This document shows, piece after piece, positions 7,386-42,935 of a stretch of DNA of 64,000 nucleotides. The DNA lies in assembly GCF_003172895.1 (NCBI RefSeq), contig NZ_QGKL01000039.1:310001-374000 (forward strand), read 5' to 3'. Position 1 is the first letter of the stretch; the number at the start of each line of letters is the position of its first letter. This DNA is from Leucothrix arctica (GTDB lineage: Bacteria > Pseudomonadota > Gammaproteobacteria > Thiotrichales > Thiotrichaceae). The position numbers and the translations under genes were made by a program. The notes beneath the pieces are model-generated. The model did no database searches, was not told where the DNA came from, and saw nothing but the letters and a program-made list of their open reading frames with translations.

Positions 7386-7411
7386 TGGTACTTTGGGGAG
7401 TCAGAAATTAA

Positions 7412-7858: not shown

Positions 7859-7893
7859 AGACACATCTAACGACGAAAACAACAGGATAAATT

Positions 7894-8535: not shown

Positions 8536-8571
8536 GAAAATACTTTGTATGAGCTGAGTGGAATATAGCGT

Positions 8572-8613: not shown

Positions 8614-8645
8614 TCCATGTTTAGCTAAAAAATGCTTCAGTCAAA

Positions 8646-18700: not shown

Positions 18701-18768
18701 TTGCTACAGAGGAAAGTACGATTCAAAATATGGCAGGAACTACACAACCTGCTGGTATGGGCATGTAA
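12715..18768 (+). CDS. CHAT-nSTAND-TM-WD40 receptor 1
   Basis: A 2017-residue signalling protein. In order: an N-terminal region (1-200) shared with its paralogue; a CHAT caspase-fold protease (about 205-370) with catalytic H225 in HIVCHG and C273 in LSSCDTA; a DSRCPFPGMEPF linker; an nSTAND1 NTPase with Walker A GSSGSGKS (513-520) and Walker B LLYLDQFEQ (D582), then helical regions to about 920; one membrane helix (about 927-947) with basic residues before it; about 14 degenerate WD40 repeats (such as GLVRIWDIATG, DGIRIWDLSS, TILLWDVVTG); and a tail with four cysteines. STAND proteins oligomerise on ligand binding and activate their effector, here probably the protease. It heads a strand-wise run of three enzyme genes. 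The membrane-distal part is strikingly AT-rich. It could also regulate cell differentiation rather than immunity. Confidence 0.92.
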   Translation: MSVAFTIEITLQPPQNKSWPIAAVLKSGKSETPPRWCFSNLSFDDSWREDLLSVSNNPEDYGRVLGRALFTETLQALLKDALVDSEHIRLFLVIEAPELKSIHWERTYFNDETGQWTSFAQDQRILFSLYEPGQSERYYPRFVQRELKTLVVINSPHPDYQDAAGANFSTFDTDLLAGQLSGINKELPDTVSPPVILSNAPNNSWRSMTAALNTGQYHILHIVCHGFYHESSQESYLAFQNEDQRLEAISTKQFVNDLKKISPLPQLIFLSSCDTAHPEASVDSQGQFAQHIRQALGTPAVIAMSGKVAQSAANTISQTFYPHLLSAPHVDIALSRASHALYQDKNNNRFMPVLRQRLGHESLFGLSEWSIHELNTAQLTSGLKRLEELLPERAPMYNQELADILTSLDLIEEEPESKLLTPNQTTFLPNVDIDPNLEVLDRFCHDVTGIDFATLTQDESSLPEYDSRCPFPGMEPFKNTDRQDFRQFFFGRDKDIAAVCQKLIDEPIVAVVGSSGSGKSSLVFAGILPKLATEGWQLLGDQQEGIRLQLSDQSQQSGNLEAQLNQALESLDANQKTLLYLDQFEQVFVGSDEHYLKQRQTLFKKLFELPKQFPKLRVLLTIRADYALEDAKQYLGDIITEQRYDLSAFTTPELRQLIEQQVASTNLIFDDGLAHRIQSEVIEDQKGVLPLLQYLLWQLWQRRKGRLLRTQDYEALNGIQHVVTTIADRVFEQYEPNETTPQEYKDAQYYLRNIFMRLTQPDKERKKAFGDHYRDIKQPVAKASLYPFGVDEGVIDELLITLHDERLITTRIDGAGKQQVEIVHESLIQYWDKLRGWLQDRQLIEMQQELSEYAQHWSERSNKVTKRNSGRLENNEALRHSGSQIKEVCDQEDNQQLFLNSTEQEYLGECKRKDIRIEKNRKRVKVFSWFMAFLLIIVSTMLIVALNLKYQSDERLASQYFDQGLKLKESNMEAGIANTYFSKAVDATWSHQYAYNYAITERQSTHGDLVTVFEHGNSSPGINIFENGEKVVTWSYSGLVRIWDIATGDQVNAPIQLRVSRGQGAIEQRSHGIKSLNLSDNNLMLVGVDTSGGISIVNLLTGQDITPTSLLGKSISQAKFFDNDSKLLIELSNGIRVWDIIKREEVNICGSTPRLGYSSRMNNESVFMRSSKFIAGESKGSICILDLESEDLFDIKHLGIESVESGLEIRLFDNGSKILVWNRSDSYRNNESVIKLWDLNTRSKKTAIVPQKLNKNIREVFILDENKFLVLTDKSTVHIWDSLVNEFTTIPIKFNSSLAAKTVVEGNLILFSWKSELDVKVSIWDINSKVLVALPDDHRGEILSAQELKGKKQFLTVDSTNIVRLWDAKTLELISKNIEHTHSSDFFYSIQTIKPMNRSPKLLDNDSKLLTRSENGSLSLWELTTGVKLWSIMPNGLESFDDVHLLAGSGQLLTSSSKSGDVQIWDFNIGKIIANPLILDEKVLGGRIFASGKKILTWNNHGEIRIKDLLTRVDLFPPLFHKKGERQMTRTVKFNQSRRARVVRRSSSIEYNHSDTQKIERQQPNPTNVSNVRVGDIPLPSERNSTPEEVSLEVDLFAEGTKLLTYSRDGMIRFWDILVGKEIYAPLQLKYSNSIGGVRLFSNETRLLTWSHGGRMYDIWDVSSQKKLANWKSSGGKPTIFANGTKVATSADTTSESQVIRNTDGEIINSNLKKLNLFKGLASHNELVCSEAYQLIAQDNRIKVLTVDRGSLLKDFSVGAIITEVNPFKESCGVLIWTSDGLGRIFNPLTGVEAQIRMDNSVDVVEAGFLDSETKIWTLGSDDGIRIWDLSSFKQVGITLKHTKAVEEVYFLSDERRLFTQGKGGTILLWDVVTGEIIGTPMNHAGPIEHLELSEDESIMLVVAGQEGRLWMLPDQSQDIGFNHEIKQAIKSGFYINDSGDSVFLSSSDINSCMEEIKSIEDCNSSSEAKCWIKRKVLGVLKLFDQLPRPSNCVGVATEESTIQNMAGTTQPAGMGM

Positions 18769-19096
18769 TACATTCATTTTTGATGTTAGAAACTGAACGG
18801 ATTTATTAAATCGGAAGGCTATTCAATGAAATAAGGATGAGTCGCCAAGAAAATTTTTAGGTGGATAGCTTGAATTTTACTTATTATCACGACTTTCGAT
18901 CTAAACTGTTATAGCACATGAAGGTAGCAGGGTAATAAGCGTGTAAGCTTTTCTATTTTTCGTTATATGGTGGATTACTATATTCAGGTGGTAATTATTT
19001 AAAAACTATTTCTATCTGTTTTTGGAATATTTCTCTAAGTGGTTGAGGTGACCAATTTTTTTATGATTAATTTTGTTCCTTTTGGAGAGTGATAAT
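18769..19096. other. 328-base AT-rich gap
   Basis: No gene and no strong hairpin seen. It separates receptor 1 from the enzyme cassette and probably holds a promoter for the three enzyme genes, so that they can be expressed apart from the receptor; no confident -35/-10 pair could be assigned. Confidence 0.4.
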
Positions 19097-20467
19097 ATGC
19101 CTCATTTATCTGTAAGCCATGATGGTAGTAATATTCAATATTTCCTAATCTGTTACGACAAGCTCGGAAACGAGCGTGAGGACGACCCTCATGGTGACTC
19201 TGGTATACTGAGTCTAAAAGTAATCCAACTTGCTAACAGTTGCGAATACACAGATATATTCCTCATCAGTCACGGATGGAAGGGTGATATACCTGCTGCA
19301 ATAGATCAATATAACCGTTGGATCTCGGCAATGGCTGCTTGCAAGGCTGACCTAGATCGACTTCAAGCAAGACCCGAGGGCTTTAATCCTCTAATTATTG
19401 GTTTGCACTGGCCGAGCTTACCATTTGGGGTTGAGGAGCATGCTCAGCTCTCTGAAGACCTTGATCCCGAACTACAAAGCTTTGATGTGAGCCCAACTAG
19501 TGATGACTGGAAAGATCAGGCTATTGAATCAATCGCTGATAGTTTAGAAGGGCAAGAAGCACTTCGTGCCTTTCTGGACGCTTATGATTTTTATGATTCA
19601 CCTTATGAGCTAACGGATGAAGCGTTTACTGCCCTCAACTCAATACTTGCTACTGAAATTCAAACTTCTGATATACCTACCGAAGAACAAGTAAACGTTG
19701 ATGCAGGGACTTTGTTTTCTGCAATTAAAGATCAGGTTGATAAAGAGTCTTCCTCAGATGCCTTTGTGTCATTTGGCTCAACGGTAAAAAAAGGTGGGGT
19801 AATTGCGGGTATTTTGACTCAGTTATCCGCTTGGAAAATGAAAGAACGTGCCAGAACATTTGGTGAAAATGGCGCGAGTCTGTTATTACGAGAGCTTCAG
19901 TCAGTTACAAATACTGATACCCAATTCCATTTAATGGGCCATAGTTTCGGCACAATCGTTGTTTCATCTGCAGTTACTGGTGAAGGGGGTAGTGAGGTTT
20001 TGAAGCGTCCAGTCAATAGTATGATGTTAGTTCAAGGTGCTGTTTCGTTATGGGCTTTTTGTAAAGATATACCGGTTAAAAAGGGTACAAGTGGTTACTT
20101 TCAACAGTTGTCTAATCCTAATTACATCTCAGGGCCGTTAGTTGTGACTTACACGGCTAACGATACTGCTGTAAAAACTATTTACCCCTTAATGTCATGG
20201 ACTTCAACATACGAAACCGTTTCATTTGATTCTAAGTCTTACCCTAGACACGGTGCTATTGGTCGCTTTGGTGTACAGGGTGATGGTGTACAGATTGAAC
20301 AACTCGAGATGTTGTCTCTGAATGGGAAATATTCCTACAAGTCAAATACGTTTTATAACCTACACTCTAGTGAATACATAAAGGAGAATGAATCGTTATT
20401 TGGCGGTGCGCATAATGATATTGATCACCCAGAAGTAGCGCACGCATTTTTATCTGCAATTACTTAA
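19097..20467 (+). CDS. Alpha/beta-hydrolase (lipase-like) effector candidate
   Basis: A 456-residue cytoplasmic protein (no signal peptide). The nucleophile elbow GHSFG (S283) lies after a typical strand (FHLM), and an upstream DIFLISHGWKGD (about 53-64) looks like the strand and oxyanion-hole region of alpha/beta hydrolases. Candidate triad histidines are in GGAHNDIDHPEVAH near the C-terminus. The ATG at 19097 is chosen because TTTGGAGAG precedes it; the frame is open to a TTG at 19073. It lies 13 bases before the cysteine protease gene. A membrane-lipid or ester hydrolase effector is plausible; the substrate is unknown. Confidence 0.75.
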   Translation: MPHLSVSHDGSNIQYFLICYDKLGNEREDDPHGDSGILSLKVIQLANSCEYTDIFLISHGWKGDIPAAIDQYNRWISAMAACKADLDRLQARPEGFNPLIIGLHWPSLPFGVEEHAQLSEDLDPELQSFDVSPTSDDWKDQAIESIADSLEGQEALRAFLDAYDFYDSPYELTDEAFTALNSILATEIQTSDIPTEEQVNVDAGTLFSAIKDQVDKESSSDAFVSFGSTVKKGGVIAGILTQLSAWKMKERARTFGENGASLLLRELQSVTNTDTQFHLMGHSFGTIVVSSAVTGEGGSEVLKRPVNSMMLVQGAVSLWAFCKDIPVKKGTSGYFQQLSNPNYISGPLVVTYTANDTAVKTIYPLMSWTSTYETVSFDSKSYPRHGAIGRFGVQGDGVQIEQLEMLSLNGKYSYKSNTFYNLHSSEYIKENESLFGGAHNDIDHPEVAHAFLSAIT

Positions 20468-20480
20468 AAGGAGCTCTTGG

Positions 20481-21929
20481 ATGACTGATGAAACAAAGAA
20501 TGATGAAAGCTTAATTGCTTTTAATGGTATCAATGGATCTACTGGTGAGGAGCTTTTTCAACCAGTAGGTGTATCTGATGTTGCAGCAGTATTTCGTGGT
20601 GAAAAACTCGATATCGATAGCTATAAATACGCACGGTATATTGAGGATGAGAGAAGCTTGGATCACTTTGGTGTCGTAGGTAACGTCGAAACGGATGTCA
20701 CTAAGGCAGGTTGGGGAATTGTTATTAACCCTGAAATGAACGATTTCAAAGAAATACTTGCAGCTCTTGATCCGCTACTAAAGCATCGAGAAAACCAAGT
20801 TGATGCGGGATTATTTAAGCGTTTGTCCTTTTTGCCTGACAAGGACGTCTTAATTACGCGCTGGTTAGCAAGAAATGGTGCAGGAGCATCTGCTGTTGAG
20901 CCAGAAAACATTCCTTACTATTTATTGATAATAGGGTCTCCAGAAGATATCCCCTTTTCATTCCAGTACAGCTTAGATACACAATATGCAGTTGGGCGTG
21001 TTGACTTCCAGTCGGTAGAAGACTTTGCAACTTATGCTGCACAAGTTGTAGAAAGAGAAGTGAGCACTACACATCGTCATAGCAAGCAAGCGGTTTTGTT
21101 TGGTGTAAAAAATGAGGATGATGCGGCAACACATGCTAGTGACGTTAAGTTGATTCAACCTTTGCATGCATCACTTTCAACGGAGCATAGCGATTGGAAA
21201 ATTGATGTTGTAAGAGGAGAAGAGGCAAGCAAGAGTCAGTTATCAAAAATATTTGCCAAAGATGATTTACCCTCTTTTTTGTTGACCGCGTCACATGGCC
21301 TAGGCTTTGAAAAAACCGATGCTAGGTTCGAAGCTGACCAAGGTGCTTTACTCTGTGGCGATTGGCCAGGAGTCTCAAAATGGGGCAATAACCCGATCCC
21401 TGAGGAGCACTATTTCTCTGCCAAAGACCTTCCAAATAATACAGATTTACAGGGAATGGTGTGCTTTATTTTTGCTTGTTATGGTGGGGGTATGCCAAAG
21501 TTTGATGCATTTGACCATCAAGCTACTGGTAACGTTAATATCATAGCAGATGCTCCTTTTACCTCTAAGTTACCTTCGCAATTACTGGTTTCAGGTGCAT
21601 CAGCGGTTATTGCACACGTAGAGCGCGCATGGGCAGCATCTTTTATTGGTGACTTTTCTGTTGATAATAAAGGGGCATTTAAAGGGACTATTGATGACTT
21701 GTTGACAGGAGTACCTGTTGGTCACGCCATGCACTTTATCAACGACTACGCATCTCTTATGCAAGCTGAAATGGGTGATTTGCAGGAAAATAGCCGTCTT
21801 GACCCTTTTTATATTGATAACCATGACATTACCGACCAAGTAATGGCTGGTGTTTATATTCGGAAGAATGATGCACGAAATTATATATTGTTGGGAGATC
21901 CAGCGACTTATCTAAATGTAGAAAAGTAA
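20481..21929 (+). CDS. Caspase-fold (C25 gingipain-like) cysteine protease
   Basis: A 482-residue protein with the clan CD protease pattern: a hydrophobic strand ending in His (FLLTASHG, H272) and a second ending in Cys (CFIFACYGG, C333). The upstream YLLIIGSPEDIPFSFQYSLDTQYAVGR block resembles the N-terminal subdomain of C25 (gingipain) peptidases. It has neither the signal peptide nor the propeptide of secreted gingipains, so it should act in the cytoplasm. GGAGCTCTTGG precedes the ATG; the spacing to both neighbours is 13 and 24 bases. It may be a downstream executioner or processing protease activated by the CHAT receptor. Confidence 0.8.
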   Translation: MTDETKNDESLIAFNGINGSTGEELFQPVGVSDVAAVFRGEKLDIDSYKYARYIEDERSLDHFGVVGNVETDVTKAGWGIVINPEMNDFKEILAALDPLLKHRENQVDAGLFKRLSFLPDKDVLITRWLARNGAGASAVEPENIPYYLLIIGSPEDIPFSFQYSLDTQYAVGRVDFQSVEDFATYAAQVVEREVSTTHRHSKQAVLFGVKNEDDAATHASDVKLIQPLHASLSTEHSDWKIDVVRGEEASKSQLSKIFAKDDLPSFLLTASHGLGFEKTDARFEADQGALLCGDWPGVSKWGNNPIPEEHYFSAKDLPNNTDLQGMVCFIFACYGGGMPKFDAFDHQATGNVNIIADAPFTSKLPSQLLVSGASAVIAHVERAWAASFIGDFSVDNKGAFKGTIDDLLTGVPVGHAMHFINDYASLMQAEMGDLQENSRLDPFYIDNHDITDQVMAGVYIRKNDARNYILLGDPATYLNVEK

Positions 21930-21953
21930 TTTAATTCCAAGGAGAAGAGCTAA

Positions 21954-23054
21954 ATGAGTACGAATTTGTTGTGTTGTTTGAAAGAGCCTTATGCTCGGCA
22001 AAAGGAACTAGATAAATTAGCGGAGTTTGATCCGTTTCGTTCATTTGCGATCTTTGCATTGGATCAAATATGGATGAAGGGAAGTGAGATTACTTACCAT
22101 TTCTTTGATGAAAGCAGTGACTATGGCTACCTTGAGTCTGATACAGATCAAAAAAATAAGGTCAGTTGGGTTGGAGTAGAGGCTGAAAAAGAACTGGTAA
22201 GAAAAGCATTTAATGTTTGGAACAGCGTTGGGATAGACCTTGACTTTGTTGAAGTGACCGATCGTAAACAAGCTAAAATACGTATTGGTTTTATGAAAGG
22301 CGATGGTAGTTGGTCTGCTGTAGGAACAGATTGTTTGTTATACAAACATGCTGATACTCGTACAATGAATTTTGGTTGGAGAATTTCTGGCGACCCAGAT
22401 CTTGCACTGCACGAAATTGGCCATGCGTTAGGTATGCACCACGCTCATCAAAATAAAAATGCAGGAATTGAGTGGAATGAGGAAGCGGTCATTAAAGAGT
22501 TCTCGGGAAAGCCAAACTACTGGAGCGAAGAAGATATAAGAAACAATATATTAGCGCCTCTTGCACCTGCTAAGTACTCTGCATCGAACTGGGACAAGGA
22601 TTCTTGCATGCAGTATCACCTTAATGCCGGTCTTATTAAGGAGCCGACTGAATACATGACGAAAGCGCTTTTACCCAAAGGAGGACTATCCGACTTGGAT
22701 AAAGAGTGGCTGAAGAAAATTTATGGTCCTGAAGAACAAGCGCAAAATGCTTCTGCAATCGAAGTGCTCAAGTCAGAAAAGCTCCAAATGAACAATGGAG
22801 ATCAGAAAAATTTCCCGATTGAAGTAAACGAAACACGTGAATACAGCATACAACTATCGGGAAAGTCAGATGCGGTAATGGTTCTTTTCGAAGAAACATC
22901 GTCTGGTTGGCAACAAATAGCTGCAAGTAACGATAGTGGTACTGATGCTAACGCGCTGATACAGCAAACTTTGCATGCAGATAAACGATACAACCTTAGA
23001 ATACAACTGTATTGGGAAGGTAGCGCGGGTGAGACTATTGTGACGTTATGGTGA
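21954..23054 (+). CDS. Metzincin zinc metalloprotease
   Basis: A 366-residue protease of the matrixin/astacin type. The zinc site HEIGHALGMHH (H153, E154, H157, H163) matches HExxHxxGxxH exactly, and CMQYH (M219) is the likely Met-turn. The C-terminal 90 residues (about 275-366) form a beta-sandwich resembling the bacterial pre-peptidase C-terminal domain. There is no signal peptide, unusual for a metzincin. AAGGAGAAGAG precedes the ATG. Last gene of the three-enzyme cassette; possibly kept inactive until cleaved, for instance by the neighbouring cysteine protease (inference). Confidence 0.88.
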   Translation: MSTNLLCCLKEPYARQKELDKLAEFDPFRSFAIFALDQIWMKGSEITYHFFDESSDYGYLESDTDQKNKVSWVGVEAEKELVRKAFNVWNSVGIDLDFVEVTDRKQAKIRIGFMKGDGSWSAVGTDCLLYKHADTRTMNFGWRISGDPDLALHEIGHALGMHHAHQNKNAGIEWNEEAVIKEFSGKPNYWSEEDIRNNILAPLAPAKYSASNWDKDSCMQYHLNAGLIKEPTEYMTKALLPKGGLSDLDKEWLKKIYGPEEQAQNASAIEVLKSEKLQMNNGDQKNFPIEVNETREYSIQLSGKSDAVMVLFEETSSGWQQIAASNDSGTDANALIQQTLHADKRYNLRIQLYWEGSAGETIVTLW

Positions 23055-23454
23055 ATATTGGGTCGGAGAGGGGGGGGGGAATATAGATGCTTAGAATCTT
23101 TGGTAGAGCTCAAATACGTAGAGAAACTTGCTATCACCGGAGGTTTAGAGTTAGCATTTTTAGGGTGCTGGGTTAAGGATAGTTTTAAACCCTAATATGC
23201 TTAATAAGAATTAAGTACTGGAGGCTTTAAGTCTCCATGTTACCCAAAAAAGTTGTAGGACACTATGTATAGTTAAATTTAGCAATCAAAAATGGCACCT
23301 ACTAGGTATCAAGTTATAGCCGCAAAGCGGCGAAACGATCTTAAAATAAGAAGTGTTTAATGCAACCACCGTTAATAAATTGGGAGTTAGTCTCCAGTAA
23401 ATTTATAATTGGTGTGATCAATTTAACCACCTTTTATATAAATAATTCTATAGT
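23055..23454. other. 400-base gap between convergent modules
   Basis: No supportable gene. A run of ten G (23070-23079) lies 16 bases after the metzincin stop codon. A short hairpin TGGAG/CTCCA is near 23220, but no clear rho-independent terminator serves either convergent transcript. The remainder is AT-rich. Confidence 0.5.
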
Positions 23455-26400
23455 TTATTTAATATGAGGGTTTAAATCAGTTGATTCTCGACACTTAGTT
23501 ATTGTTGGTAGTTCGCCCAAAAACTGTTGAGCTGTCCACTTTGTTTTACACCATAAGTTGCTTTCAATATTGCATTCTTTGTAAGGTTCAGTGGCTTTAT
23601 CGCAGCGCTTTAGCTGATCAGAACTTAAGTATCTTGGCTGACCATACTCATCAATATAAGTCCCCGTTTTAACGGCTTGATTCATTTCATTAAGAAACTG
23701 ATCGGGGGAGGGGGCTAAATTGAGCTTCCATAAGTAAAGCTTCTTTTTACTCCAGGTTATAATAGATTTCTGATCAGGGGCTACTCTAACTCCTTCAGTA
23801 TAATTTTTTTGCATCATTGGATAACTTAGCATAAGTCCAGTCTTTGCATCCCAAGCACGTATTGAGTTTTTACTGAATGTCAATATTAACTCTCCTTGTG
23901 GAAATATAGTGGCGCCACCTATATTTTTGTAGATAACGTGGTCGCTCCTTAAGTTAGAGGCTCTCATTACTTTTTCAGTTGGATCGTCAGGTAAGATGAA
24001 GCTGTGCAAGTCACTTTCACTCCATTCAGGAATAGGTTTACGGCCTCTTTCGATTGTTAAACTTTTGTTTTCTGAGAAAAAATCTCCAGAACTACCACTA
24101 AAACTACCGCCTTCTGACGTCAGTATCAACTTTCCTGTTTGTTTTTCTCTTATTTGTAATACTGTTCCGGCGCCTTCGGATGTGCTCCTGATGAATATAT
24201 ACTTTCCACTTTCTGATTCTGTGGCGGTAAAGCTAAACTCATGCATTCTGAACCCGATAAAACCTTCGGGATCATGACTAAATGCAACGCCAACTTTACC
24301 CAAAATTGCATCATAAATCTGTATTTCTTCTTCGTCGTTGACGAACAATAGAGTCGCCGAGCTACCCAGTACCTGCAATCGAGCATCGATTGTTTCATCT
24401 CTAACTTTTATTTTATCTCCAATTTGCTCAAAGGTTAATGCATCCCAGAATTGTACTGTATCACCGTAGTTTGCTAGAAATCTTTTTTTATCGAAGGAGA
24501 CAAGCACTCTCTTATTCCCATTATGCGGGAACGTAATACCAGTAGACTTTCCGGTAGCAACATCCCAAGCGTGGGCATGACCGTCATCACTACTCCATGT
24601 TAGTAAGTGTTTATCGTTATACAATAAAATAGGGGGGGCAGATTCGCCTGAATGTTTTTTTGCCACGCCTTTTTCTTTAATTTCTTGAGTTGTTGATATA
24701 TCCCAGAGACGTGCAGAATCAGTTCCCCATGTTAATAATTGTTTGCCCTTAGAAAATACATGAAAGCCGAGGATATCCGTTCCATGCTTTATTGTATTGC
24801 CTATAACATCAGGTGAAGACTTATCCAAAATATGAACGACCCCATCAGTGTATGATATTATTAGTTGATTATTACTTGTTAGCTGTGCATTCTGAATGGT
24901 TGGGGGAGCTGCTTGGTTGTCTGTATTTCTAACAGCAATTTTTATCGAGTGTTTACTCAAAGTACCAATTCGGATTTTATCCATTAAATAATTTGTAAAA
25001 TATAACTCATTAGAAAGCTCTGAGTCTAAATTTGGTTGTATTCTGTTAACAGAGGAGTTTTTTAAAAACACACCTCGGCTTGTTAATAAATTATCGTAAT
25101 AAATTCCATCAGAATTTTCACCTGATGTGCACTCACTTGAAGAAAATGGATTCAGAACTCCTTCTTCTATTTGTCTTTCTAACACTTCAATATTAATTCT
25201 ATCTATTATCTGGCCTGTCTGTATGCTATGGATATCTATCCATGAGTCGTGAACAATATATGCACATTTTTCATTCTGGGATATGCTAATCTCCGTATCT
25301 AAAAACTCTTCAAGTGAATTGTCGTCTATAATATTTAAAGTTTTTAATGTAGGTACTTCGATGATGTGAATTTCCCCATATGAGCGACCTACAGGCGTAC
25401 TAATAAACGAACGTGAACCGTTAATAAGTAACCTCGTCTCTCCCCTTAAAAGCCCTATTGAGTCTATCTCTCTGCCTGTAGCTTCAACGCTTTTGATCAG
25501 TCTACCTGTAACTAAATCGTACAGATATAATTGACCATCGTAATCCCACGATAACAGGCTTTGTTCATTATTAAACACAATACCGCCTGTAAACACACTC
25601 GTAGGGCCATCAGGTTCCCACGGTGTTGCCTCATACCTCGTTGCACTGTGCTGCATCAACCCGCCAATACTTACTCCTGTTGATAAATCCCAAACTTGTG
25701 CTATCCCAGCTTCATCTACAGTTAAAACTTTTGCACCATTTGAAATTGGTGTTGCGTCTATAATATCGTTCTTTGTAAATTTTATAGTTGGCCCAAGCTT
25801 GTTCTTTAAGTCAATATCCCAAGCCTCAACAAAATTACCACCCCACACCAATAGCTTGCTACTGTTATCAAATTCAGTTATTCCTAAAATTTTATGTTTA
25901 AGCGTTTCAGCCAGCTTAAAGTCTAAAAGGCCAATTTCTGCGAATGCGTTATGAATAAGGTTCTTAGTTTCCTCTGTTGTGCTGGCATCTTTAGCTTTAG
26001 CAAATGCTACAGATGCTTGGTACCAAAGGTTGTCAGCGCTTAAGTTATACCCTATTTTCAAATATCTCTCAGCGTCTAAGTTACTTATTAGATTTTTTTG
26101 ACCTATTGCTACCCACGATATAATCCCTGAAATAGAAAGTAGTACAGCAAAGAAAACTGCTAAAATGCGTACATATCTTTGATTCCTCTCCCGAGTATGA
26201 TCTTCAATTTTACAGGCTTCCAAATACTTTTCTTCATCCTTGGTCGTGAAAAGCAACCCTTCAGCTTTATATTTCCCAATGTCTTCTAAGCGAGTTCCCG
26301 TATGCATCAACTGACTTTTCTTATAGTTCTTATCTGTCTCCTCTTTCCAGGCTCGACTCGCTTCAATAAGACCTTGTCTAATTATGTTTATGCCTGAATC

Positions 26401-28860
26401 ATTAAGCCAACGATCTAATCTAGGCCAATTATGAATCAAACTTTCATGGGCAATTTCTACATCATGCTCATAAGTTACGATTAAACGTCTTTCACCATCT
26501 GACAGTTCCTGAATAAGTTGACGAAGTAGTATCTTGTTTGCATCTTGAGGGTATAGTTCTTGTTGTGAAATGCGTTGACGAGTATCTCGGTATTTATCAT
26601 TTCCAATTTGCGTTTGTCGTTCGTTATCTGGTCGTGTAAGGCGTAGATAGATATTTCGAAGGTAACGCTGAGCTTCTGAGTTATTCTTATATTGCTTGTA
26701 ATGGGTCTCAGCAATCTCAGCAATTGCATTGCCAGATTTTTTGATTTTGTCGTATTCCTGATTGCGCAAGTGTTGCCCTCGTCGTCTGTTCCAAAGGGAG
26801 CGGAGGGATTGTTGTAGTAATGGCATAGCGCCAGGCTGCCCATCTACATCATTCAAAATGCGTTGCAGTAACCCTTGCTCTAAAGTGAGCTTAACGGAGT
26901 CTGCTTGCTGCTCAATAGCTGTGCGTAACTCTCTTTGATTCATCGGTGGTAAAAGTTCAGCCTGGTCCTGAACTATTTTCCGAAGGTTTTCATAGGGAGC
27001 GCAATCACCACTGAAATCTACCCGCATCGTTAATACGACTTTACAAAGAGGGTATTTATTGGGGATTTCTAGTAGAGTATTGACATAAGTTTTGATGGCT
27101 TGCTTTGTTTTTTTCGCATCATATTGTAGATGAGTAGTAAAAATTTCTTCAAACTGGTCAACAAAGAGAATATTATTTTTTTCAGGGTTTATCTGGGTAA
27201 TAAACGTATTTAGCTGTTCTAGCTCATGATTGTGAGGACGTAGGGTTGTAATTACCAGCGGTTGGTTTTCTTCTTTTGCTTGTCTATCTATAGCCGGTAA
27301 TACGCCAGCGTATACAATCGAAGATTTACCCGAACCTGAGTCTCCTTTGATCATGAGTACACTGAGTGAATCTAGGCGCTTGGTTAGTTCTTTTACTTTT
27401 GTCTCTCTTCCAAAAAAGTAAGGCCTATAGTCAAAATTGTCTCCAGTATCTTTATCCTTAAAAGGACGTAAGCCAGGAAACGGACAACGCGCATCATAGG
27501 ATGCAACCGCCTTAGCCTGTGCAAGTGCTGCAAAGCCAATGCCAGTTGTTTCTTGTGTGAGTTTATCTAGTTCCCGAAGAGTATCTTGTTGTTCACTAGC
27601 GGACTTACTGATATCCAGTTGCTTATATAGCTTTTTGTAAGCGGAAGTTAGGGCTGGGGCACGTTCATCTATAAGTCCATTATTTCCATTTATATTACCT
27701 AGTTGGTCACAGCCATATTTAATTTCAGCTGGCGTGAGTTGATCTAGAGATTTTTCTTCTGTTGTAAATAGTGGTCTGCTACCTAAGCGCTGATAGAGCA
27801 CAGGCATGTGGCGATCAGCCGCATTTAATAACGATACTCCTGCTTTAGATAATGCAATATCAACGTGAGCTTCCTGAGTTAAGTGACCGTAAAAGTGTTT
27901 TGTTAGTGTGTGGGCGGTATCAATCGATACCTTATCACTCATAGCAATAACAGCAGGTGTTCCCAAATCTTCTAACAAGCGAAGTGCTAGAGGTCTAGAC
28001 CTATTATTGTCGTCAGTGATTTTACTGGCTTTCGGGGTAGCAGTCTCGCAGCAGGATAAGACAATTAGGTTTGGTAAAGTAGAGAGGCGTCCCAACTCTT
28101 TAACTATTTCATCTTCGTTAATGATTGAGCGACCTTGATAAGGGATGATTAATGCATGTTGTTTGCTTTGTTCATTGTAAAAACCATGCGCTACAATATG
28201 AAGGATGGGGTAGGGCCTTTTATTAAGAGTTTGAAGAAGACTTTCCCAGCTAACCTCTTTTTTATCGCAAAGATAAGTAACGGGGGGGGTGATGCGACCT
28301 TCTGACTCATAAGCCTCTTCTATTTTAAAAGCCTGCTTGGCTGTATCAATGTCAAAGGGGTGGTAGTCTCCTAGAGTGTTAGAGGGGCTGCTAATGACAG
28401 CTAAAGTGTGCAGATTATGTTTGCTAAGCACCGGATATCTACGATCAATCAAACTCGGGATGTAGTAAGAGAATACCAGTTGCTGATGTTGTGCTAGCGA
28501 CTCCCATTGACCAAGGTCATTTTTGAAGCACAGTCTTTCCCATTTAAGGTGCTTTAAACCTTTTGCTTCGACATTAAGAAAAACCTGTGTGAAAGTTGGT
28601 TTGCCGTTGTCATAACTGTTTTTGGTAGCATCCCTAGTTATATCGAAGATACCATCATTGAATAATGCTCTACCAATATATTCGCCGTATTCATCAGAGT
28701 TAAGGTCCAGTGCAAGTAACTTACTTTCCCAGTCCTCTTCTAGCTTGAGTGTGCTTTCTCTGCGATGAGGCAATGCATCATGATGATGCAATGTTGCAGT
28801 CACTGGCCAAATGTTTTCATCTGGTGATTGTAGAGTAATTTGGAGATAAGCGTTTGGCAT
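23455..28860 (-). CDS. CHAT-nSTAND-TM-WD40 receptor 2
   Basis: An 1801-residue paralogue of the 12.7-kb receptor with the same order: N-terminal region; CHAT protease with H225 (HIVAHG) and C271 (LSCCETA); DARCPFPGLRPF linker; nSTAND1 NTPase with Walker A GDSGSGKS (506-513) and Walker B ILFVDQFEE (D568); a membrane helix at about 898-920 after a basic stretch (RERNQRYVR); WD40 repeats that are fewer and more diverged; and a tail whose four cysteines keep the spacing of receptor 1. All catalytic residues are present. The gene lies 33 bases after the 218-residue protein, with which it likely forms an operon, and points toward the enzyme cassette. The weak ribosome site before the ATG suggests coupling or low expression. 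Confidence 0.92.
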   Translation of the reverse strand: MPNAYLQITLQSPDENIWPVTATLHHHDALPHRRESTLKLEEDWESKLLALDLNSDEYGEYIGRALFNDGIFDITRDATKNSYDNGKPTFTQVFLNVEAKGLKHLKWERLCFKNDLGQWESLAQHQQLVFSYYIPSLIDRRYPVLSKHNLHTLAVISSPSNTLGDYHPFDIDTAKQAFKIEEAYESEGRITPPVTYLCDKKEVSWESLLQTLNKRPYPILHIVAHGFYNEQSKQHALIIPYQGRSIINEDEIVKELGRLSTLPNLIVLSCCETATPKASKITDDNNRSRPLALRLLEDLGTPAVIAMSDKVSIDTAHTLTKHFYGHLTQEAHVDIALSKAGVSLLNAADRHMPVLYQRLGSRPLFTTEEKSLDQLTPAEIKYGCDQLGNINGNNGLIDERAPALTSAYKKLYKQLDISKSASEQQDTLRELDKLTQETTGIGFAALAQAKAVASYDARCPFPGLRPFKDKDTGDNFDYRPYFFGRETKVKELTKRLDSLSVLMIKGDSGSGKSSIVYAGVLPAIDRQAKEENQPLVITTLRPHNHELEQLNTFITQINPEKNNILFVDQFEEIFTTHLQYDAKKTKQAIKTYVNTLLEIPNKYPLCKVVLTMRVDFSGDCAPYENLRKIVQDQAELLPPMNQRELRTAIEQQADSVKLTLEQGLLQRILNDVDGQPGAMPLLQQSLRSLWNRRRGQHLRNQEYDKIKKSGNAIAEIAETHYKQYKNNSEAQRYLRNIYLRLTRPDNERQTQIGNDKYRDTRQRISQQELYPQDANKILLRQLIQELSDGERRLIVTYEHDVEIAHESLIHNWPRLDRWLNDSGINIIRQGLIEASRAWKEETDKNYKKSQLMHTGTRLEDIGKYKAEGLLFTTKDEEKYLEACKIEDHTRERNQRYVRILAVFFAVLLSISGIISWVAIGQKNLISNLDAERYLKIGYNLSADNLWYQASVAFAKAKDASTTEETKNLIHNAFAEIGLLDFKLAETLKHKILGITEFDNSSKLLVWGGNFVEAWDIDLKNKLGPTIKFTKNDIIDATPISNGAKVLTVDEAGIAQVWDLSTGVSIGGLMQHSATRYEATPWEPDGPTSVFTGGIVFNNEQSLLSWDYDGQLYLYDLVTGRLIKSVEATGREIDSIGLLRGETRLLINGSRSFISTPVGRSYGEIHIIEVPTLKTLNIIDDNSLEEFLDTEISISQNEKCAYIVHDSWIDIHSIQTGQIIDRINIEVLERQIEEGVLNPFSSSECTSGENSDGIYYDNLLTSRGVFLKNSSVNRIQPNLDSELSNELYFTNYLMDKIRIGTLSKHSIKIAVRNTDNQAAPPTIQNAQLTSNNQLIISYTDGVVHILDKSSPDVIGNTIKHGTDILGFHVFSKGKQLLTWGTDSARLWDISTTQEIKEKGVAKKHSGESAPPILLYNDKHLLTWSSDDGHAHAWDVATGKSTGITFPHNGNKRVLVSFDKKRFLANYGDTVQFWDALTFEQIGDKIKVRDETIDARLQVLGSSATLLFVNDEEEIQIYDAILGKVGVAFSHDPEGFIGFRMHEFSFTATESESGKYIFIRSTSEGAGTVLQIREKQTGKLILTSEGGSFSGSSGDFFSENKSLTIERGRKPIPEWSESDLHSFILPDDPTEKVMRASNLRSDHVIYKNIGGATIFPQGELILTFSKNSIRAWDAKTGLMLSYPMMQKNYTEGVRVAPDQKSIITWSKKKLYLWKLNLAPSPDQFLNEMNQAVKTGTYIDEYGQPRYLSSDQLKRCDKATEPYKECNIESNLWCKTKWTAQQFLGELPTITKCRESTDLNPHIK

Positions 28861-37347: not shown

Positions 37348-38577
37348 ATGCCCTGTCGCATTCGCTTGGCCAGCTTCGTGTCATTAGTACTTGTTCTAGT
37401 ACTCACAACTTCCTGTACACAAAAAAGTAGCAGTGAGCCGGAGACTAATGGCCCTGACTCCTCAGAAGGCTCCGATAAGCCTTTACCCCCAAAAGTATCA
37501 ACAGCGCCTCCATCAGCAATTGTGAGAAGAGCGCCTACTGCGGCTGCAGCTCCCATGAAAGTTGAGGCATCTGACTCATTCAGAGCGTTCGGTCAGATTC
37601 TTTACAACCCACCCACTGAAATGACGCTCAATGTTGCAGAAATGATTGAGGTCAGAATAGCCAAAAATGAAGTGAGTGATAAAGGGTTGAGCGGCAGCGG
37701 TGAGGTTAGACGGGAGGAAGTTCCAATCACTCAAGTGATGAGCGTGCGCTTGTGTTGTGGTGACTCAGGCAATGGTGATCCATTTGATATAACGACTGCA
37801 AGTGCTGAGGAGCAGTTAGTAAATTCTCCTTTGCTTATAGAGGGAGAGTTTACTGAATGGGTGTTTCAGGTGACCCCGCGTGTTAAAGGTGAGCAAAAAC
37901 TCACGCTTCATGCTATAGCAAACTACACTCTAGAAGATGGTAGAAGCGTCCCTATAGGCAAAGTACTGAGCCGCGATATTGTGGTTCAAGTCGATGCCCC
38001 GACAGAAGTTTGGCGCTGGCTAGTAGAAAACTGGTATTGGTTTGGTATTTTACTGGTGATCCCGTTGACGGCATTACTCATTAACCGCCGAAACCAAGCC
38101 TCCAGTATCCCCCATATTCCTTCAGGCAACGAGTCAGTATTTATTAGTTATCGACGGGATGACAGCAGTGGCCACACTTTGGCTGTTTACGAAAAGTTAA
38201 AGTCAGTGATGGGTGATGAACATGTGTTTATGGACTCGGATGACATCCCTCATGGTGCTGACTTTGCTGAGCATATTGAAAAGGTGCTAGACAGCGCGAG
38301 TACGGTATTGGTGATGATTGGCCCAGCTTGGTTAAACGCGAGTAATACGCAAGGTCGTCGTTTGGATAACCCTCAAGATTTTGTCCGTATGGAGGTTGCA
38401 ACGGCGTTGGAGAAAAAATTACGGGTGATTCCAGTGCTCTTACGAAACACTGAAATGCCATCTTCCGACGAGCTACCAGACGTGCTAAAGGGCTTGAGCA
38501 CGCGTAATGCTATTCGTATTTACGATGATCAGTTTGATTCAGGCATTCAACGTCTAATAAAGTCAGTGGTTAATTAG
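37348..38577 (+). CDS. Membrane-spanning TIR-domain protein with periplasmic domain
   Basis: A 409-residue protein: N-terminal signal with a lipobox-like LTTSC (C23), a low-complexity Ser/Pro linker, a beta-rich domain (about 75-215), one membrane helix (about 226-246) followed by NRRNQ, and a C-terminal TIR domain (about 260-409). The TIR has the first strand SVFISYRRDDS, a BB-loop region DSDDIPHGADF, and E349 in FVRMEVATAL at the position of the catalytic glutamate of NAD-cleaving TIRs. Topology: sensor domain in the periplasm, TIR inside. This looks like an outside-in receptor with a potential NADase effector. The lipobox is imperfect (Thr at -3). Confidence 0.85.
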   Translation: MPCRIRLASFVSLVLVLVLTTSCTQKSSSEPETNGPDSSEGSDKPLPPKVSTAPPSAIVRRAPTAAAAPMKVEASDSFRAFGQILYNPPTEMTLNVAEMIEVRIAKNEVSDKGLSGSGEVRREEVPITQVMSVRLCCGDSGNGDPFDITTASAEEQLVNSPLLIEGEFTEWVFQVTPRVKGEQKLTLHAIANYTLEDGRSVPIGKVLSRDIVVQVDAPTEVWRWLVENWYWFGILLVIPLTALLINRRNQASSIPHIPSGNESVFISYRRDDSSGHTLAVYEKLKSVMGDEHVFMDSDDIPHGADFAEHIEKVLDSASTVLVMIGPAWLNASNTQGRRLDNPQDFVRMEVATALEKKLRVIPVLLRNTEMPSSDELPDVLKGLSTRNAIRIYDDQFDSGIQRLIKSVVN

Positions 38578-38587
38578 TCGCTGACTT

Positions 38588-39079
38588 TTAAAGCCTCGCA
38601 TCCTGCCAAGTCTCAATAGGCTCCGCAGGGTATGGCGTCAGTTTCACCGTTTTCACCGCTTCAACCGCCACAAATTCATCCTTATCAGAAGCGTCACCAC
38701 TGACACCTACCGCACCAATTACCATGCCTTCTTTATCACAAATAAGTACGCCACCTGGTACAGGTACAAATCGACCTTGCGAAGCCGCAGCTAACGCACC
38801 TTGAAAAGAAGGGCGATCTGAAAGGCGATTACGAATAGTTCGACTAGAAATACCCATACCTAGCGCACCCCATGCCTTACCTGTCGCTATATCTGCGCGC
38901 ATAATGCCCGAGCCATCTTCACGCTTCATGGCGAGCATATGACCGCCAGTGTCTAGCACCACGACAGTCAGTGGTAATAGTCCGTACTCTTTACCAAGCT
39001 TCAAAGCGTGGTCGACGATAGCTGAAGCTGCTTCAAGAGGTAGTGCTACCTTTAGATGCTTGACGTAATAATCAGACAT
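38588..39079 (-). CDS. GlcG/HbpS-family (DUF336) protein
   Basis: A 163-residue protein of the GlcG/HbpS heme-binding-like family: VVVLDTGGHMLAMKREDGSGI, IATGKAWGALGMGISS and GGVLICDKEGMVIGAVGVSGDASDKDE are the family signature blocks. Members accompany glycolate, propanediol and carboxylate catabolic genes, and some bind heme or act as redox sensors. It is divergent from the malonyl-CoA decarboxylase gene across a perfect long palindrome, suggesting common control. Confidence 0.85.
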   Translation of the reverse strand: MSDYYVKHLKVALPLEAASAIVDHALKLGKEYGLLPLTVVVLDTGGHMLAMKREDGSGIMRADIATGKAWGALGMGISSRTIRNRLSDRPSFQGALAAASQGRFVPVPGGVLICDKEGMVIGAVGVSGDASDKDEFVAVEAVKTVKLTPYPAEPIETWQDARL

Positions 39080-39184
39080 AGATGAAATCTCTTTTTTTGA
39101 TCGTTGTTTTTTAGTAGCTAGGCTCTTGGGAGAATTATGAGCCTTATTGACTAAAATGATAGATAAATTTAATACCGATTATAT

Positions 39185-39224
39185 CGCTAAAACAAATAAA
39201 ATGTCGATTTTATTTGTTTTAGCG
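39185..39224. promoter_or_regulatory. Perfect 18-bp inverted repeat
   Basis: CGCTAAAACAAATAAAAT (39185-39202) and its exact reverse complement (39207-39224) flank a 4-base centre GTCG. It lies between two divergent genes, 47 bases before the malonyl-CoA decarboxylase ATG and 106 bases before the GlcG-like start. Without a U tract it is unlikely to be a terminator; a regulator operator or an mRNA hairpin is more likely. Confidence 0.75.
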
Positions 39225-39270
39225 TGGGTATTTGTTTAATATAAAGATTCTCAATAGCCAACAGAACTCC

Positions 39271-40605
39271 ATGACTATGTTTCAATTAATAGATACTAGA
39301 AACGGATTGCTTAGCGACCTCTTAACAAGAGTGACGGATATTGGGAGAAGTCTCGACTCCGTTATTAAGCAACGGGAAAAGCCGCTGCTTGAACAGTGCG
39401 AAGGCCTGTTAGATAAGAATGGTGAGGCCGCTAGTCTTGCCAAAGCGCAACAGTTGCTAAAGCATTATGATGAGCTTAATGATGAGGAAAAGGGCGTTTT
39501 CTTCCTTGAAATATTAGCAAATTTTGGCACAGATAACGCAGCCTTAGAGAAGGCGATCAATAACTGGAAAAGTGACAGTAGTGAAGCCAATGCACGCGTT
39601 TTGCACTTTGCCAGTGAGCCAAGAAGTCAGATTTTATTACGCCGTATTAATCAAGCGCCGAATGGCACATTGGCGTTGGTAAAAATGCGTGCAGATTTGT
39701 TACGTTTTACACGTACTCACCCCGAATTAAAAATCTTAGACCAAGACTTTGCACACCTGTTTTTGTCGTGGTTTAACCGTGGTTTCCTCAAACTACAAAC
39801 GATGGACTGGGGCACACCCGCCAATATTTTAGAGAAAGTCATTGCCTACGAGGCGGTGCATGAGATCAGTAATTGGAGCGCGTTACGTCAACGCGTCGCT
39901 GACCCTGACCGACGTTTATACAGCTACTTTCATCCAGCCTTGGGTATTGAGCCGCTGATTTTCGTACAAGTGGCATTGACCGACCACGTTCCCGGTGCGA
40001 TTGCACCCATACTTGAGAAACAACGCGAGCCGCTAGATCCTGAGAAAGCGACTACGGCAGTGTTTTACTCCATCTCAAATTGCCAGACAGGTTTGAAAGG
40101 TATTTCCTTTGGTAACTTCTTAATTAAACAAGTGGTTGAGAACTTACGTGAAGAGTTCCCAAAATTGGAGACTTTCATCACCTTATCGCCAGTGCCAGGC
40201 CTGAGACGATGGGCGTTACAGCAGCTTGAAAAGCCTGACGCTGTTACGACAGCAGAGCACTTGGAGTTGATACGTGACTTAGAGCGCGCTCGGCTTGAGG
40301 GTACTTTGACTTCATTGCTGGAAAATAATAAAGCGTTTAAAAACTTAGTCGCAACTTATTTAGTGAGCGCACGCTCACCTAGAGGTGGCGCGACTGATCC
40401 AGTGTCTCGCTTTCACTTAGGAAACGGTGCGCGACTTGAAGATATTCACCTTCAAGGGGATGTCTCAGAGAATGGATTGAACAACTCATGGGGTTGCATG
40501 GTTAATTATCAGTATAGAATAAGTGACATCGAAAAAAATCATGAGACTTATGTGAATGCGGATAAAATTATTACGTCATCAGCAGTAAAAAGTCTGCTGA
40601 AATAA
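39271..40605 (+). CDS. Malonyl-CoA decarboxylase
   Basis: Converts malonyl-CoA to acetyl-CoA and CO2. A 444-residue protein with an N-terminal helical domain and a C-terminal GNAT-like catalytic domain: FYSISNCQTGLKGISFGNFLIKQVV carries the active-site Ser region, and RFHLGNGARLEDIHLQGD near residue 380 carries the catalytic His. The length and motifs match the MLYCD/MatA family. The frame is open to a TTG at 39232; an ATG at 39271 (or 39277) is more likely, though neither has a good ribosome site. It is followed 30 bases later by a CoA-transferase and then a stump of malonyl-CoA synthetase, placing it in malonate use. Confidence 0.92.
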   Translation: MTMFQLIDTRNGLLSDLLTRVTDIGRSLDSVIKQREKPLLEQCEGLLDKNGEAASLAKAQQLLKHYDELNDEEKGVFFLEILANFGTDNAALEKAINNWKSDSSEANARVLHFASEPRSQILLRRINQAPNGTLALVKMRADLLRFTRTHPELKILDQDFAHLFLSWFNRGFLKLQTMDWGTPANILEKVIAYEAVHEISNWSALRQRVADPDRRLYSYFHPALGIEPLIFVQVALTDHVPGAIAPILEKQREPLDPEKATTAVFYSISNCQTGLKGISFGNFLIKQVVENLREEFPKLETFITLSPVPGLRRWALQQLEKPDAVTTAEHLELIRDLERARLEGTLTSLLENNKAFKNLVATYLVSARSPRGGATDPVSRFHLGNGARLEDIHLQGDVSENGLNNSWGCMVNYQYRISDIEKNHETYVNADKIITSSAVKSLLK

Positions 40606-40635
40606 AACGACCCACCAATTTAAGGAGTTTTAAAT

Positions 40636-41805
40636 ATGACAAGTTCTATGCCGCTAGAAGGCATTCGAGTGATTGATATGACGGAGGCTTTGGCTGGCCC
40701 CTATTGTGCGATGATGTTGGGTGATATGGGGGCAGATGTCATTAAGGTTGAGCGTACAGGTTCAGGTGATCAAGCACGCAAATGGGGCCCTCCGTTCTTA
40801 GAGAGCGAGAGTGCCTATTATATGTCGACCAATCGAAATAAACGCTGTATCACGGTCGACATTAAAGACCCCGATGATCTGGCGCGGTTGCATAAACTAC
40901 TGGAGACAGCGGACGTTTTTATTACCAATAATCCGCGTCTCGATTCACTAAAACGCTATAAATTAGACCCTGATTACTTGCGCTCCATCAATCCTAAGCT
41001 GATTTTTTCGGCGTTGAGTGGTTACGGCCATACGGGTCCAAAAGCAAACCGTGGAGGCTATGACCTTATCGCACAGGGCGAAACAGGTTTGATGGCGATT
41101 ACCGGTGGCCCAGAAGACGGACCGATGCGATTCCCTACACCAATTTCGGATATTACAGGTGGCCTTTACTCAACGATTGGTATTTTGAATGCCTTGTATG
41201 CCCGCGATAAAAAGGCAGGCGGATCGGGCAGCGGTCAGTTCCTTGATGTTGCTTTAGTAGACTCAGAGATGACGTGGCTAGCAAATTTAGGCGGTAGTTA
41301 CCTAAATGCAGGTCAGAAGCCTAAAAAGATGGGCAATCAGCATCCAACGATTACACCGTATCAACCGGTACGCGCTAAAGATAAAGATATCATTATTGCT
41401 GTCGGTACTCAGGCTGTCTGGGGGCGTTTTTACAAGATTTTAGACTTGGATGAGGCATTAGTGGCATCGCGCTTCGCCACCAATGAGCAACGCAACGAAC
41501 ATAGAGATGAGCTAATTGCATTGATCGAAGAGGTACTGATGACGCAAAACGCGGATCATTGGATCGATCAATTTGTCGCGCACCAAATCCCCGCTGGACC
41601 AATCAACCTACCTGACGAAATTTTAGAGGATGAGCACACCTTGGCTCGTGGCATGGTGATCGAAATGGATCATCCACTCGTGGGAACTGTTCGAAATATT
41701 GGTAACCCAATTAATTTATCGGAGACACCCGTCACTTATAGGAAGCATCCGCCAATGCTGGGGGAGCACAATGATGAGATTGATGAGGAGATTGGTTGGC
41801 AATAG
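40636..41805 (+). CDS. Family III (CaiB/BaiF) CoA-transferase
   Basis: A 389-residue enzyme that moves CoA between carboxylic acids through an enzyme-anhydride on an aspartate, here D172 in PISDITGG. Opening LEGIRVIDMTEALAGPYCAMMLGDMGADVIKVE and the C-terminal PAGPINLPDEILEDEH are family hallmarks. AAGGAG precedes the ATG. Its position directly after malonyl-CoA decarboxylase suggests that it loads malonate (or a related diacid) with CoA, regenerating acetyl-CoA or succinyl-CoA as donor. The substrate is inference. Confidence 0.9.
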   Translation: MTSSMPLEGIRVIDMTEALAGPYCAMMLGDMGADVIKVERTGSGDQARKWGPPFLESESAYYMSTNRNKRCITVDIKDPDDLARLHKLLETADVFITNNPRLDSLKRYKLDPDYLRSINPKLIFSALSGYGHTGPKANRGGYDLIAQGETGLMAITGGPEDGPMRFPTPISDITGGLYSTIGILNALYARDKKAGGSGSGQFLDVALVDSEMTWLANLGGSYLNAGQKPKKMGNQHPTITPYQPVRAKDKDIIIAVGTQAVWGRFYKILDLDEALVASRFATNEQRNEHRDELIALIEEVLMTQNADHWIDQFVAHQIPAGPINLPDEILEDEHTLARGMVIEMDHPLVGTVRNIGNPINLSETPVTYRKHPPMLGEHNDEIDEEIGWQ

Positions 41806-41809
41806 TGTG

Positions 41810-41980
41810 CTAAACGGAAGGGTTAGTCATGTTGAGAGCAAAGCATTGCTCAATACTGACTTGGCTAAGTACAAGCAGCCTAAGAAGATTTTCTTTGTGG
41901 ACGAGTTAACTCGTAATGCGATGGGTAAAGTTCAGAAAAAAGCGTTACGTGAAACTTATGACGGAAGTTTTTTTAAGTAA
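41810..41980 (+). pseudogene. matB: Malonyl-CoA synthetase C-terminal remnant
   Basis: In another frame after the CoA-transferase stop, about 45 residues read LLNTDLAKYKQPKKIFFVDELTRNAMGKVQKKALRETY, the C-terminal subdomain of acyl-CoA synthetases including the catalytic GKVQK lysine, and closest to MatB malonyl-CoA synthetases. The rest of the roughly 500-residue enzyme is missing. The stump occupies the position where intact matB follows the decarboxylase in malonate operons. Confidence 0.8.
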
Positions 41981-42077
41981 CAATACAGTGTTAGTGAAAT
42001 AGTTACTTTTGGTTGAGTAACTACCTTGGGCGCTGCGGTCATGCTTTGAAATATAGGCATGGTTGCAGCGCCATTTT

Positions 42078-42935
42078 TTATTGTGGCGATAAGGATAAAA
42101 AATCAAACTGGTACTTTTTGACTGACGCAATCAGTTTCTGTTTCTGTAAAGGCGCCAGTGAGTTGAATAAGTCTGACATCAACGTCAAGGTCAGCTGCTT
42201 ACGTTGCTGATAAGATTGCTTTTCAGCAGCACTAGCGTAGCGCTCTTGAGTCTTAAACTGAGCAAGAATACTTCGGTTAAATTGCTCTGGGTTAGAACGA
42301 TTGTTTAACAGCTTAGGGACGACCTCTGAAAGACGTTTATGGCGCTGCTCTCTTAGCATGTTGTTAGAGGCAGTGGCTTTTGCCCAGTCAGCAATGAGGT
42401 TGGCTTGTGATTTAGTCAATCGGCCAACTAGCTTAGCCATGCGCTTTATCATTCGGTTTTGTCGTCTGACTACTTGCTGCTTAGGTGTTCTGGCTAGGTC
42501 TTCTTTTAAGTCTTTCGTTAATTCTCGTTCAATGTTTTTAATCACGGAGGGAATTTGTTTGGCGTCTAATGAAAACAGCATGGTTGTGATAATAGGCACT
42601 AGCTCATCTACACTGGCCATTACTAAATCAAAGACCTCATCATAAATCTTGCTAACGTCCTGAGGGTTCAGTGTTTCTTGTTTGAACTGAACCGCTTTTT
42701 TAGCCATAAAGTCGGCATAGACTCGCAGCTGTGTTGATTGATGCCAGTAGTGAAATTTATTGATATCTCGATTTAACGCAGCACCTTGCGAGCTTGTTAA
42801 AGACACATAATCATTGATCTTCCAGCGTATCGCATTATCCAAAAAACGATAACTGACTTTGATGGTGCTGCAACCTACTAACAGCGACAGTAATAAGGTA
42901 ACTAGCAGCGTTTTTAGAGATATTCTTACGTGCAT
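42078..42935 (-). CDS. DUF6279 family lipoprotein
   Basis: A 285-residue lipoprotein: signal peptide with lipobox LLVGC (C22), then an all-helical body beginning STIKVSYRFLDNAIRWKINDYVSLTSSQ, the hallmark of this gammaproteobacterial family. Many Lys/Arg and Gln residues. No known function; probably attached to the periplasmic face of a membrane. Monocistronic. Confidence 0.85.
   Translation of the reverse strand: MHVRISLKTLLVTLLLSLLVGCSTIKVSYRFLDNAIRWKINDYVSLTSSQGAALNRDINKFHYWHQSTQLRVYADFMAKKAVQFKQETLNPQDVSKIYDEVFDLVMASVDELVPIITTMLFSLDAKQIPSVIKNIERELTKDLKEDLARTPKQQVVRRQNRMIKRMAKLVGRLTKSQANLIADWAKATASNNMLREQRHKRLSEVVPKLLNNRSNPEQFNRSILAQFKTQERYASAAEKQSYQQRKQLTLTLMSDLFNSLAPLQKQKLIASVKKYQFDFLSLSPQ

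Follow-up and report, generated by a model that had tools for sequence, protein, structure and literature searches.

A class III CoA-transferase gene in the probable former place of matB, next to a matB remnant, in Leucothrix arctica

Background

Which enzyme would activate malonate in a bacterium that has kept an intact malonyl-CoA decarboxylase (MCD) gene, matA, but only the very end of the malonyl-CoA synthase gene, matB, that follows it in related genomes? The question is raised by a locus of Leucothrix arctica in which a gene for a class III (CaiB/BaiF) CoA-transferase stands between matA and the remnant of matB. The window, by which we mean the whole stretch of 64,000 nucleotides that was analysed, covers positions 310,001 to 374,000 of contig NZ_QGKL01000039.1.

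Activation of malonate by CoA transfer is an old idea: Hayaishi is said to have proposed, in the 1950s, a transfer of CoA from acetyl-CoA to malonate, and such an activity was reportedly found in anaerobes by Dehning and Schink. Malonate CoA-transferase carries the number EC 2.8.3.3 and, in the part of PMC8307300 consulted, is listed without a KEGG function number and with reference to work on Pseudomonas ovalis. No report in which a class III transferase is coupled to MCD was found among the titles and opening lines of abstracts searched, a collection that lay mostly outside the subscription journals.

If the transferase does act on malonate, the locus would provide a candidate gene for activating free malonate through a CoA transfer that needs no acyl carrier protein (ACP), as well as an example of a pathway step taken over by an unrelated enzyme while the stump of the old gene is still present. 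The enzyme would possibly make malonyl-CoA from malonate at no direct cost in ATP, with a modest energetic gain. In the present work, we compare the locus with its counterparts in related genomes, examine the transferase and its neighbour matA, and weigh the reading that malonate is activated here against three alternatives.

Results

Layout of the locus and identity of the matB stump

The features of the locus are collected in Table 1. The transferase begins 30 bases 3' of the end of matA, and homology to matB can be followed codon by codon from about 41822, which is 16 bases past the stop codon of the transferase.

Table 1. Features of the matA-transferase locus (coordinates are those of the window)
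Feature	Coordinates	Strand	Basis and remarks
hbpS (HbpS-like gene)	38588..39079	-	Divergent from matA, syntenic landmark; Pfam HbpS-like, 101 bits; 82% identity to the gene of G004, same position and orientation
matA, malonyl-CoA decarboxylase, intact, 444 aa	39271 (ATG) to 40605 (stop)	+	Pfam MCD, 313 bits, and MCD_N, 93 bits, both full length
AAGGAG, putative ribosome-binding site of the transferase	40622..40627	+	By eye; 8 bases ahead of ATG 40636
Class III (CaiB/BaiF) CoA-transferase at the former place of matB, intact, 389 aa	40636..41805	+	Pfam CoA_transf_3, 403 bits, model positions 1-366 of 366
matB stump, last ~52 codons and stop	~41822..41980	+	Frame differs from that of the transferase; matches to NF005702 and to MatB of G004
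Terminator-like hairpin followed by a T run, 3' of the stump	42029..42072	+	18 pairs, 10 of them G-C

The reading frame at 41699-41980 matches the malonyl-CoA synthase model NF005702 at positions 460-504 of 506 only (E 1.6e-14), and this model is the best of the 36 NCBIfam families for that frame, on which no Pfam family gives a match. When MatB of a relative in the same genus (G004) was compared with the whole genome of L. arctica, it led to the same place, window 41813-41962, with 76% identity over residues 454-503 of 507. Taken together, the family match and the similarity to the relative's protein identify the stump as a genuine MatB remnant and not a chance similarity. The first-pass annotation had read the locus as a decarboxylase, a class III CoA-transferase and a C-terminal stump of a synthetase closest to MatB; both the order, from Pfam, NCBIfam and the comparison with G004, and the affinity of the stump are borne out, while its length needs correction, since the roughly 45 residues given are the length of the model match and the stump runs to about 52 codons.

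When 40603-41830 was compared locally, as DNA, to the terminal part of matA and to matB of G004, no further convincing piece of matB came to light (best score 31). No direct repeats 6-12 bases long were found to be shared by 40591-40650 and 41796-41840, and no tRNA genes were found within the window. The hairpin scan found two terminator-like sites in 38500-42300, where shuffled sequences lead one to expect 3.7.

The matA-matB arrangement in relatives

In G004 the genes run FAH, TRAP permease, TAXI receptor, hbpS (reverse), matA and matB, the last three intact, and the same six genes are found in an Oceanospirillaceae metagenome-assembled genome (MAG; L017); two further Oceanospirillaceae MAGs (L016, L037) have FAH followed by matA-matB. 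Since hbpS, matA and an intact matB follow one another in G004, the transferase sits where matB was, and we consider its replacement of matB in place, as judged from this synteny, to be almost certain. Replacement had already been proposed in the first-pass annotation, together with a comparison with relatives; that comparison supports it through the intact hbpS-matA-matB of G004 and L017, the matA-matB of L016 and L037 and the search of the genome of L. arctica, in which no other MatB was found (below). A relative with both an intact matB and this transferase was looked for in the genome samples described below and not met; locus L065, which has matB, carries upstream of its MCD gene a transferase of 37% identity that is not an ortholog.

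The FAH, TRAP permease and TAXI receptor genes are retained in L. arctica (85%, 81% and 80% identical, respectively) on the same contig, but they lie immediately ahead of the window and some 39 kb away from hbpS-matA, whereas they are contiguous with these genes in G004 and L017. Beside them are genes for a dioxygenase, DctP, DctM and a nitroreductase-like protein. In Pacificitalea (L313) a dioxygenase, TRAP genes, a 'malonic semialdehyde reductase', FAH, MCD and MatB are clustered.

As separate observations, the intervening stretch of about 39 kb (window 1-38587) opens with a further TAXI-TRAP pair, the second (window 11-2597). An intradiol dioxygenase, a TRAP transporter and FAH occur together in L. 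arctica (L311, 3705-10586), in L016 and in L313, and in the latter two the group adjoins MCD and MatB; two of the three groups have the nitroreductase-like gene, the one in L313 being that annotated as malonic semialdehyde reductase.

Age of the replacement

Divergence was gauged by counting codon differences. Over a core of 38 codons the stump differs from matB of G004 by 15 synonymous and 4 nonsynonymous codons, and it carries a P to T change within the conserved PRNAMGK stretch. Its core stands at 14, 10, 9 and 12 nonsynonymous differences from four other matB genes, about as distant as matB of G004 itself (13, 9, 10 and 10), so that most of the divergence of the stump seems to have arisen while matB was still functional, though 38 codons are a small sample. 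The stump is thus scarcely decayed, and on the same 38 codons the loss of matB looks recent.

It might be asked whether the junction is real. An assembly artefact that joins unrelated pieces at the transferase would agree with the absence of a close relative of this gene from the genomes searched. Judged from the assembly, we regard an artefact as very improbable, however, given a contig of about 410 kb, a transferase present as a single full-length copy in the genome, and GC3 and codon use of that gene that are host-like, within the range of 24 open reading frames of the window.

Constraint on matA

The genome, listed as 99.6% complete, yielded one MCD; G003 and G004, both of the same genus, each carry in addition a second, distant one. 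In a 160-row MCD alignment MatA of the window has Ser306 and His382, which are conserved family-wide, and departs from the 72 conserved columns once (E233Q). It is 72% identical to MatA of G004, and over 442 codons the two genes differ by 192 synonymous and 121 nonsynonymous codons, which marks matA as under constraint. In the MCD tree the two form a pair (97/94) within a group of five (100/99) that also takes in L016, L017 and L037. Of the MatA-MatB pathway, then, the MatA component is predicted to be present and no intact MatB was found.

These data bear on the possibility that the use of malonate is decaying, with matB lost, the transferase a passenger and matA on its way out. Such decay does befall the matA-matB locus: in G003 the mirror image is found, with matB intact and the orthologous matA cut to its last 81-86 residues (L119, about 7352-9215). 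The end branch of the window's matA is, moreover, somewhat long (0.28 against 0.15 for G004), and Tajima tests of the two genes with three outgroups gave chi2 values of 4.09, 0.86 and 1.85. We nevertheless think decay improbable here, in view of the full-length matA with both conserved residues and a single changed column, the retained FAH, TRAP and TAXI orthologs, and a transferase that is itself intact, is preceded by what to the eye is a good ribosome-binding site and has a fold predicted with high confidence.

The transferase

A full-length CoA_transf_3 domain and a class III fold place the protein in the CaiB/BaiF class. The AlphaFold model, which drew on 44 of the 60 transferase rows besides that of the window, has a mean pLDDT of 93.9, and the 50 hits listed by Foldseek (TMq 0.83-0.95) are class III enzymes. 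The first hit is human succinyl-CoA:glutarate CoA-transferase (SUGCT; PDB 9br6, chain A; TMq 0.94, 37% identity), which is also the first match by sequence, and the closest solved relatives are SUGCT, Brucella enzymes and the acetyl-CoA:oxalate CoA-transferase YfdE, 33% identical in the fold match. Asp172, for which a catalytic role is predicted, aligns with the catalytic Asp of YfdE and is D in all 62 alignment rows; GNQH at 233-236 aligns with the GNxH loop that characterises the YfdE-like group. The modelled fold, Asp172 and the loop fit the class III enzymes that use acetyl-CoA or succinyl-CoA.

In the parts of PMC3720670 consulted, YfdE and UctC, both GNxH enzymes, form oxalyl-CoA from acetyl-CoA and oxalate, the GNxH loop marks the group and the Asp of YfdE is the site of covalent catalysis. 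A succinyl-CoA:mesaconate enzyme with GNxH is, by the corresponding part of PMC5592240, strict for succinyl-CoA and uses neither acetyl-CoA nor methylmalonate; from that account the loop settles neither the donor nor the acid. GNxH is a common motif from which little can be learned about the acid, and 'malonate' as a separate word is absent from the main texts of these two papers as consulted.

The scores of the protein fall below the cut-offs of the NCBIfam equivalogs for succinate-glutarate (347 against 750 bits), mesaconate (256 against 700) and oxalate (246 against 522). Of 108 conserved columns it deviates at 26, the fourth most among the 62 rows, for which the median is 2, and its end branch in the transferase tree is 2.57; long branches meet in this tree, so that the row of the window is left unplaced and its position is unsure. 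Within samples that are a part of the genomes that exist, no ortholog was found in 57 genomes of relatives, L. arctica included (best 42% identical), in plasmids (best 44%), or, among the best few candidates scored per genome, in 369 genomes of the class (best 43%) and 398 of the phylum (best 47%). At 1e-95 the gene matched only its own genome among 63 of the order, and no relatives were found in viral contigs. With 47% as the best identity met, the donor lineage is probably unsampled.

Other activating enzymes in the genome

Outside the stump no MatB was found in the genome, the best match to MatB of G004 elsewhere being 33% identical. Seven AMP-binding places are present; the family scan covered four, comprising two FadD-like proteins, one AcsA above cut-off and one Acs/PrpE-like protein, and the other three lie in frames of 2462, 1158 and 937 residues. 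No whole MdcA was found either, PF16957 matching over 75 of 546 positions (25.8 bits, cut-off 25.4). Since neither another MatB nor a whole MdcA was met in the genome, the transferase would be the best candidate activator if malonate is used. The genome also encodes, at L125 8980-11493, a protein of 837 aa whose two halves are both class III CoA-transferases and which, from its size, may be DddD-like.

Survey of MCD neighbourhoods

We examined 176 MCD loci: the best 80 of at least 590 relatives found, 86 of the 87 MCD places outside L. arctica in the phylum sample (G669 left out), and 10 plasmid loci hand-picked from 60 listed of 238 matching records. A MatB, an MdcA or a class III transferase was called where a tblastn hit inside the fetched stretch exceeded a bit limit. 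By this measure matB occurs at 105 loci, L065 included. A class III transferase lies directly downstream of MCD on the same strand at two, one in a betaproteobacterial MAG (L055, MCD then transferase) and one in Pseudoroseomonas (L315, GntR-MCD-CoAT); at one more (L284) it is on the other strand. MdcA stands directly upstream of MCD at two (L255, and L318 of Bradyrhizobium), and the remaining 66 loci have none of the three, an upper bound because some fetched stretches end near MCD. Because L315 and L318 belong to the plasmid loci chosen by hand, they give no rates. On the count of 66, MCD often stands without the three activators.

The transferases of L055 and L315 share 49% identity, and their identity to that of the window is 38-40%. 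A residue signature common to the three was sought and nothing beyond chance emerged, 928 of 1891 row pairs equalling it. The variable residue of GNxH is Q in the window and in L315 (SNQH) and L in L055 (GNLH); Q is found there in two of the 62 rows other than the window's, L315 counted, which is a post hoc tally and is not used as evidence. The MdcA of L318 scores above its family cut-off and that of L255 is 79% identical to it. MdcA followed by MCD (L255, 2785-5930; L318, 4320-7257) may constitute a two-gene system for malonate decarboxylation; other mdc genes are not annotated in the L318 stretch.

Discussion

On the position of the gene, the content of the genome and the recurrence of MCD-transferase pairs, we put the probability that malonate is the physiological acceptor of the transferase at about 0.6. 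Weighing against this reading are the divergence of the transferase, a GNxH loop that does not point to malonate, the failure to find a signature common to the MCD-paired transferases, the longer end branch of the window's matA and the 66 MCD loci at which none of the three activators was found. In the mechanism that we propose, matA remained intact while the transferase took over the activation step. CoA would be transferred through Asp172, while His236 in the GNxH loop lies close to the acyl moiety; the donor would be acetyl-CoA, regenerated by MatA, or succinyl-CoA, as in SUGCT, and MatA would decarboxylate the malonyl-CoA to acetyl-CoA. With acetyl-CoA as the donor malonate would be converted to acetate and CO2, in a cycle like that of formyl-CoA transferase and oxalyl-CoA decarboxylase.

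The first-pass annotation had spoken of an ATP-free malonate cycle. With acetyl-CoA as the donor this holds for the decarboxylation but not for the process overall, since the acetate needs reactivation, for which AcsA is present; on pathway reasoning, malonate would be decarboxylated without ATP, and reactivating the acetate would cost what MatB would. A succinyl-CoA donor would save about one ATP equivalent relative to MatB.

The main competitor is that the transferase activates another acid, for example one from the dioxygenase and FAH catabolic genes, that MatA only clears malonyl-CoA arising by other routes and that the use of free malonate has ceased. Many different acids serve as substrates of class III transferases, and the one described here scores below the cut-off of every named subfamily; the dioxygenase, FAH and transporter genes are on the same contig, and the 66 MCD loci with none of the three activators agree with an MCD that works without them. 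Against this, the transferase occupies the place of matB, immediately behind matA, and elsewhere MCD is directly adjoined by class III transferases and by the malonate transferase MdcA. We judge the activation of another acid to be unlikely, if by no means negligible. The reading in which malonate is activated is plausible and gains support from the other MCD-transferase pairs.

Compared with the known MatA-MatB pathway, the locus has an intact MatA and the hbpS, FAH, TRAP and TAXI genes of its matA-matB relatives, but a class III CoA-transferase where MatB should be, and FAH, TRAP and TAXI at a distance. With formyl-CoA:oxalate CoA-transferase and oxalyl-CoA decarboxylase it shares the pairing of a class III transferase with an acyl-CoA decarboxylase, and with YfdE the catalytic Asp and the GNxH loop. 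Unlike in the oxalate systems the decarboxylase is an MCD, so that the acid would be malonate, and the transferase lies below the oxalate family cut-off. SUGCT is near in sequence and fold, but its loop reads GTAH in place of GNQH, its family model scores the protein far below cut-off, and ours is a bacterial gene paired with MCD. In the Mdc malonate decarboxylase and EC 2.8.3.3, malonate is likewise activated in a cycle by transfer from an acetyl thioester (for MdcA, the part of PMC5534430 consulted); MdcA, however, belongs to another protein family and serves ACP, and L. arctica has only the short partial match to its model. We offer as a tentative generalisation, for which the odds are a little short of even, that a class III CoA-transferase with MCD is the malonate counterpart of the FRC-OXC cycle of oxalate, one that has repeatedly evolved as a substitute for MatB and is here accompanied by a molecular fossil, with MdcA and MCD as a third solution.

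Elsewhere in the window two giant CHAT-nSTAND1-WD40 proteins are encoded at 12715-18768 (forward) and 23455-28860 (reverse), and between them lie two open reading frames that match no Pfam family and the gene for a matrixin/astacin-like metalloprotease (21954-23054); the whole stretch, 12715-28860, has a low GC3 and looks like a CHAT-protease defence-type island. The gene at 37348-38577 encodes a membrane protein whose C-terminal part is TIR-like by eye.
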